Assembly: GCA_028278665.1 (NCBI GenBank)
Contig: JAQAJI010000004.1
Location: 1 to 37,983 of the forward strand
DNA length: 37,983 nt
Origin: Candidatus Rariloculus versatilis
GTDB taxonomy: Bacteria; Pseudomonadota; Gammaproteobacteria; Steroidobacterales; Rariloculaceae
Reading direction: 5' to 3'
This document shows, in pieces, positions 23,267 through 25,426 of this stretch. Both the position numbers and the translations under genes were made by a program. Under the pieces are notes generated by a model, which saw only the letters and a list, made by a program, of their open reading frames with translations, had not been told where the DNA came from and ran no database searches. The stretch's first letter is position 1; every line of letters begins with the position of its first letter.

Positions 23267-23530
23267 TTGGCGAACATTCAATCCGCTCGGAAACGGGCCA
23301 GGCAGGCCGTCAAACGCCGCGCACACAACGTCGCATTGCGTTCGCGCATGCGCACGGCCATGAAGTTGGTGCTGAAGGCCGTACGGGCGGGTGACAGGGA
23401 CGCCGCCCAGGAGCGTTTCCGGCAGGCCGTTCCCGAGATCGACCGGATGGTCAACAAGGGCATCATCAAGAAGAATCGCGGCGCTCAATACAAGAGCCGC
23501 CTCAACGCCAAACTGCGCGCCATGTCCTGA
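23267..23530 (+). CDS. rpsT: 30S ribosomal protein S20
   Basis: An 87-residue, strongly basic ribosomal protein. The N-terminus (MANIQSARKRARQAVKRRAH) and the C-terminal MVNKGIIKKNRGAQYKSRLN are diagnostic of S20, which binds 16S rRNA. The start codon is TTG (23267-23269), preceded by ACGGGAAATACC. E. coli rpsT also starts with UUG, where the weak start is tied to autogenous repression by free S20. The same control is inferred here. It has its own promoter and converges on obgE across the palindromic-repeat region. Confidence 0.97.
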   Translation: MANIQSARKRARQAVKRRAHNVALRSRMRTAMKLVLKAVRAGDRDAAQERFRQAVPEIDRMVNKGIIKKNRGAQYKSRLNAKLRAMS

Positions 23531-23592: not shown

Positions 23593-23666
23593 GCACGAGT
23601 ATGCGCAACATGCTTGCGTCCTCCGCTTCGCAAGATCGGCCGCAAGCATGTTGCGCATACTCGTGC
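23593..23666. repeat. Long palindromic element 1 (26-bp perfect arms, 22-nt centre)
   Basis: Left arm 23593-23618 is the exact reverse complement of right arm 23641-23666; the outer end reads GCACGAGTATGCG. The 22-nt centre (23619-23640) begins TCCTCCGCTTCGCAAG and ends ATCGGC. It lies 62 bp after the rpsT stop in a convergent intergenic region. There is no T run after it, so if it ends transcription it does not do so as a standard intrinsic terminator. Its centre is the exact reverse complement of that of element 2. Confidence 0.95.
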
Positions 23667-23779
23667 GTGAGCGTTGTCTGAGGTTTGGGGCGCACAGGTT
23701 GCTCCGAGTGCCAGTCTTTGTGGTTGCCGGCTCTGGCCAGGCGTCGGCTGGTGCGGGGGCACACGAATCTGGCCCCCGA

Positions 23780-23800
23780 CCGATTCTGCGAAGCGGGGGG
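23780..23800. repeat. Decayed third copy of the element centre
   Basis: CCGATTCTGCGAAGCGG (from 23780) matches the centre of element 2 (CCGATCTTGCGAAGCGG) at 17 of 21 positions over the whole stretch, in the same orientation. As in element 2, CCCCCG precedes it (23773-23778) and a G run follows. The flanks no longer pair as long arms. Only a short local hairpin, GGGGGC 23755-23760 with GCCCCC 23772-23777, remains to its left. Confidence 0.6.
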
Positions 23801-23820
23801 ACGAACAGAAGTCGGTTGGT

Positions 23821-23894
23821 GCACGTGTATGCGTAAAAGTCCCCCGGCCGATCTTGCGAAGCGGAGGACGGGGGACTTTTACGCATACACGTGC
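23821..23894. repeat. Long palindromic element 2 (26-bp perfect arms, 22-nt centre)
   Basis: Left arm 23821-23846 and right arm 23869-23894 are exact reverse complements; the outer end reads GCACGTGTATGCG and the inner end AAAAGTCCCCCG. The centre 23847-23868 (GCCGATCTTGCGAAGCGG, then AGGA) is identical to the centre of element 1 read on the other strand. It lies 14 bp past the obgE stop. The adjacent TTGCGCATAC (23895-23904) repeats ten bases of the arm of element 1. Confidence 0.95.

Positions 23895-23908: not shown

Positions 23909-25426
<1,518 letters not shown>

Follow-up and report, generated by a model that had tools for sequence, protein, structure and literature searches.

A perfectly paired hairpin with changing arms and a conserved centre at the rpsT/obg junction of Candidatus Rariloculus versatilis

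Introduction

How can the two arms of a long hairpin change in sequence and stay perfectly complementary, and what keeps the centre between them the same? The question is raised by two palindromes, W1 and W2, in a stretch of 37,983 nucleotides from Candidatus Rariloculus versatilis (contig JAQAJI010000004.1, positions 1 to 37,983; the window hereafter), which the original prediction described as inverted copies of a dispersed element, shaped by selection for a hairpin or by copying of one arm onto the other.

Results

Two inverted palindromes between convergent genes

W1 and W2 occupy the gap between two convergent genes, each of which is adjoined by one copy in its own sense. On the plus strand, rpsT (23267..23530, putative TTG start) encodes ribosomal protein S20, as judged from the translation and a Pfam PF01649 match at 23270-23515 (E 5e-27); W1 begins 62 nt beyond its stop codon (23528-23530) and is in the rpsT sense. 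A search of viral contigs with the rpsT protein returned no match. On the minus strand, a GTPase gene (23909..24970, putative start), which from established family knowledge we take to be obg/cgtA, has a translation with 89% amino-acid identity to its ortholog in G002, a second genome of the genus, and its stop codon (23909-23911) lies 14 nt from W2, which is in the obg sense.

Both elements have exactly the predicted positions and layout of 26 + 22 + 26 nt. W1 (23593-23666, plus strand) comprises the left arm GCACGAGTATGCGCAACATGCTTGCG (23593..23618), the centre TCCTCCGCTTCGCAAGATCGGC (23619..23640, in the rpsT sense) and the right arm (23641..23666), and W2 (23821..23894, minus strand) has the arms GCACGTGTATGCGTAAAAGTCCCCCG around the same centre; as predicted, the two centres stand in opposite orientation and agree at 22 of 22 positions once W2 is reverse-complemented. 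All 26 arm positions form Watson–Crick pairs in W1 and again in W2, with no G-T pair and no mismatch among the 52. Each hairpin scores 26; the best score over 20 simulations of the whole window with a first-order Markov model was 15.5 at most. In the window the stem can be extended to 29 pairs with one mismatch, which leaves a loop of 16 nt, TCCGCTTCGCAAGATC.

The arms of W1 and W2 are identical at 18 of 26 positions and different at eight, one in the outer 13 positions and seven in the inner 13. The arms had been described as alike in their outer part only, which is too strong given the 18 shared positions; the greater divergence of the inner half is real. At all eight differing positions both arms have changed, and the claim of perfect self-complementarity despite an altered sequence is thereby borne out. 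A decayed third copy, W3, occupies about 23754-23805 of the minus strand (boundaries approximate), in the orientation of W2 and inside a 62-nt direct repeat with 71% identity to W2; it has lost its 5' arm, its 3' arm is degenerate, and its centre, CTTCGCAGAATCGG, is the same variant as that of the element in G001, another genome of the genus.

A single junction in a single genus carries the element

The genome that holds the window (2.9 Mb, 92% complete, a metagenome-assembled draft of 122 contigs) contains three copies, W1, W2 and W3, all at the rpsT/obg junction. Allowing one to two mismatches, the centre recovers no further paired copy in these 2.9 Mb, and the outer-arm pattern has exact matches only in the four arms of W1 and W2, the loci with one mismatch being without such a hairpin. 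G001 and G002 carry one element each, at the same junction and in the obg sense, and in the three genomes the element next to obg lies 14-36 nt past the obg stop codon.

A covariance model built from the four known elements (W1, W2, G001 and G002) recovered those four and nothing else convincing from 22 genomes of the family, and from 296 genomes of the order only the elements of this genus and one artefact, a match in G161 that proved to be an inverted duplication at a contig end, that is, an assembly chimera. Matches in G004, G005, G015 and G020 were also rejected: the ones inspected in G005 form weak hairpins that do not resemble the element, and the other loci yielded no long hairpin. In a scan of 84,980 species the centre was found only in the G002 record JAJEGN010000007.1 (a Gammaproteobacteria metagenome-assembled genome) and as one isolated, unpaired 20-mer in a Deltaproteobacteria contig (L026), which was set aside as chance. 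At the same rpsT/obg junction in other genera of the family there is no comparable long hairpin.

The W elements are thus specific to one junction in one genus and belong to no genome-wide family, contrary to the dispersed family that had been proposed. Occurrence of the centre here alone, which the original prediction had set against itself, is half borne out: it holds within the organism's own genome and fails in the relatives, where the orthologous junction carries the centre between arms that pair.

Arms covary while the centre is constrained

The arms of the G002 element have another sequence and form 24 of 26 pairs plus two G-T, and those of the G001 element, again of another sequence, form 21 of 26 pairs plus three G-T and two A-C. 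Among the four aligned sequences 98.1% of cells are paired, and 11 of the 26 pairs have changed on both sides. Covariation is 0.513; shuffling lowers it to 0.227, and sliding the register to 0.167 at most. None of 500 shuffles reaches the observed value, a count that is not a probability because the four sequences are related. Since the arms still pair with other sequences in G001 and G002, the structure and the centre are maintained. The mismatches in the arms of these two relatives, read in the obg sense, favour G-T over A-C by 5:2, numbers too few to prove a role as RNA. The arm test that had been suggested for related genomes came out positive in two further species, and hairpin selection and arm-to-arm copying stay the best causes. 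On its obg-side flank, which aligns with that of the G001 element over 17 nt (none of 500 shuffles as good), W2 is judged to be the ortholog of the G001 element.

The rate of change at fourfold sites of obg provides a neutral measure for the centre and the arms. Between the window's genome and G002, 60 of 198 such sites differ (17 transitions and 43 transversions), and across the three species 30-35% are different. Because the centre has changed at just one of 22 positions between W and G002 (two-sided binomial P ~0.005 against the 30% at fourfold sites), it is constrained, and its special conservation, as originally proposed, is upheld; judged from these rates, selection appears to maintain it, as though something recognised it. 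The left arms differ from that of G002 at 5 of 26 (W1) or 7 of 26 (W2) positions, near the neutral rate.

The pair changes private to one element lie in columns 6, 19 and 24 (W1) and 14, 17, 20 and 22 (W2), and five of these seven are transversions. Stepwise compensation by way of G-U yields transitions, and transversions cannot use a G-U intermediate. With a transversion share like that of the neutral sites (5/7 and 43/60), the arms fit a copying of one arm onto the other, small as the numbers are. Clustered doubly compensated changes, by which template switching is recognised, are found here, with eight of eight differences compensated and transversions prevailing among the private ones. In addition, the right flanks of W1 and the G002 element align over 37 nt, with one of 500 shuffles as good, which is weak after 16 comparisons; at this flank-matched site the loop of W1 has the opposite orientation to that of G002. 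If the two elements are orthologous, which the flanks suggest and do not prove, one loop would be turned round with respect to the other, an outcome of recombination or template switching between inverted arms.

Dispersed palindromes of the genus and order

About 1.7 Mb of the 2.9-Mb genome was read for hairpins. Family B is a dispersed palindrome of 110 nt with a fixed 52-nt centre and arms of 29-31 bp that vary by copy yet pair. It is found at the 3' ends of genes, with tens of copies to a genome (for example L159, 12696-12805 (+); L069, 1236-1345 (+); L188, 4332-4441 (-); also L227, L228, L230 and many more), and across 31 genomes out of 147 in the order, from several families, the centre is the same and the arms are unrelated. 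By a rough open-reading-frame call, 12 of 23 copies lie between convergent genes and 2 of 23 between divergent ones. Rfam held no credible match. The mismatches in the arms of B comprise 18 G-T and 2 A-C (P 0.0004), which, unlike the 5 G-T and 9 A-C in the palindromes of families C and D of the same genome, points to selection on RNA.

The B centre forms two GGA-loop hairpins, the second being GUACA(G/U)GGAUGU, and GUACAGGGAUGU, present in many copies, agrees with the CsrA SELEX consensus RUACARGGAUGU as quoted in PMC7652899. A csrA gene is present in the window's genome, and from its motif B is a possible distributed CsrA-binding element. The W centre is not significantly similar to two of the three variants of the B centre and is borderline (0.03) against the third, and kinship between the two was not accepted. 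We note that many contigs of G001 and G002 end inside B elements, so that draft assemblies undercount this family.

Three further families were seen in passing. Family C is MITE-like and about 165 nt long; its ends are CTAGGAGCCTGCGCCGTAGGAAGTCGCG, it encloses a palindrome, and it has at least 10 copies in the part of the genome that was read (for example L118, 2190-2356; L152, 13566-13711; L183, 10785-10959). Family D, likewise MITE-like, has ends CTAGCAGCCCGTGG(C/T)AAAAGTCCC (L208, 15318-15483; L127, 5031-5196; L186, 4538-4699). An 11-nt match, AAAAGTCCCCC, shared by the inner end of D and the inner arm of W2 is not significant by itself, is perhaps due to chance and was not taken as a link. 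Family E has terminal repeats CTAGCCCGCAAATCTCACCAAG, probably the termini of an insertion sequence or of its MITE (L182, 884-1051; L185, 610-780; L149, 17606-17773).

Discussion

The reading that we prefer, and to which we would give an even chance, is a locus-specific 3'-end hairpin shared by rpsT and obg, whose arms are kept matched by compensatory change, probably together with template switching. Transcripts of rpsT or obg would run into the element and fold into a stem of 26-29 bp with a loop of 16-22 nt, and the palindrome would serve both directions. A scan of 1.66 Mb of the genome for hairpins followed by a T-run found 13, against 11 in the reversed control, which suggests that ordinary intrinsic terminators are not what this organism depends on; Rho or extragenic palindromes may serve its 3' ends instead. 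In a genome without an excess of U-tail terminators, the W hairpin would most likely mark or protect mRNA 3' ends, and position and structure suggest, as the likeliest role, a bidirectional hairpin that halts exonucleases or aids factor-dependent ending. The loop would be under selection as if recognised, and the arms would drift almost neutrally and stay paired, by compensatory change probably aided by template switching during replication, in which one arm is copied onto the other and the loop may flip. Such switching is documented as a maker and keeper of perfect hairpins whose compensatory changes span several bases (PMC8794818). That other genera of the family have the same junction without the hairpin counts against a 3'-end role, as does the missing U-tract, and the case draws on no more than four sequences, all related.

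Mutation could also account for the element by itself, with template switching (quasipalindrome correction) homogenising the arms and flipping and duplicating the element locally, without any function. The faultless pairing at all 52 arm positions in W1 and W2 together, the double changes of transversion type, the tandem, inverted and decayed copies that are all local, and the flipped centre at a probably orthologous site are what it would leave behind. Arm copying would leave the centre unprotected, and yet the centre hardly varies among three species that differ at 30-35% of fourfold sites; we regard a purely mutational origin as possible but rather doubtful. Another proposal is that W descends from a mobile palindrome of extragenic DNA (MITE- or REP-like, in the broad class of B) and survives only at this junction: the same genomes hold other dispersed palindrome families, of which B shares the fixed centre, the covarying arms and the preference for convergent junctions, but no other copy of W was found in the three genomes or the sampled order, neither a target duplication nor a Y1 transposase was found, and the centre is not significantly like that of B. 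This is an unlikely origin.

Action at the level of DNA, as a cruciform or as a protein-binding centre that affects replication or supercoiling between the convergent genes, seems distinctly improbable. A long, perfect palindrome is able to extrude, supercoiling responds to convergent transcription, and from its anatomy the asymmetric conserved centre could be a recognition site; against this, the orientation of the centre flips between copies, and the mismatches tolerated in the relatives lean to G-T in the obg sense, though too few to decide. That the palindromes arose in assembly or amplification can scarcely be credited: the window is one contig of a 122-contig metagenome-assembled draft and inverted repeats can be chimeras, as in G161, but in two other species, assembled independently, the same junction carries the element with arms of another sequence.

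Returning to a 3'-end hairpin with matched arms, W1, W2 and their two orthologs make a small, clean natural case in which the stem sequence turns over and the pairing stays perfect, and in which it is difficult to separate selection from template switching. Family B repeats this design across the order, with a centre that probably binds a protein, and is directly testable. A broader idea, which we put forward as speculation and think unlikely, is that W is a single-locus cousin of an undescribed extragenic class, in which a recognised centre sits on a long stem free to change while pairing; B would be the abundant form, tens of CsrA-binding hairpins per genome at 3' ends acting as decoys or 3'-end marks, with arms matched by compensation or copying.

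Comparison with known systems

REP/BIME elements with TnpA-REP (RAYT) resemble W in being extragenic palindromes at gene 3' ends and in occurring as an inverted pair, and are defined by a GTAG-type tetranucleotide before the palindrome (PMC8266576). W is found at a single locus, its stem is much longer, its 5' flanks (GCGGG for W1, GCGCAA for W2) are without GTAG, and the RAYT/Y1 transposase (PF01797) that had been suggested as a companion gave no match in the 92% complete genome, the E. coli control being positive. The view that W is not assignable to REP/BIME therefore holds, on copy number, tetranucleotide and transposase. MITEs were rejected in turn, with no dispersal and no target duplication in the flanks, and Rfam gave W no match above the gathering score, only a chance match below it.

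Bidirectional intrinsic terminators between convergent genes are like W in position and in their strong symmetrical hairpin, and W1 and W2 are indeed stable GC-rich hairpins at gene 3' ends. W differs in its conserved loop, in a stem of 26-29 bp and in the U-tract, which a terminator scan found after neither element (plus-strand tails GTGAGCGTTG and TTGCGCATAC). The hairpins attributed to template switching (Monttinen and Loytynoja 2022, PMC8794818; quasipalindrome correction in E. coli) share with W the perfect stems, the multibase compensatory changes including transversions, and a possible inversion of the loop; W differs in being a lone extragenic hairpin at a single bacterial gene junction, in the strong conservation of its loop and in a switching event that is presumed. 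The B palindromes are like W in their fixed centre, freely varying and perfectly paired arms and place at gene 3' ends, and unlike it in being dispersed, with a 52-nt centre that bears two GGA loops where W has a single locus and a centre of 22 nt.
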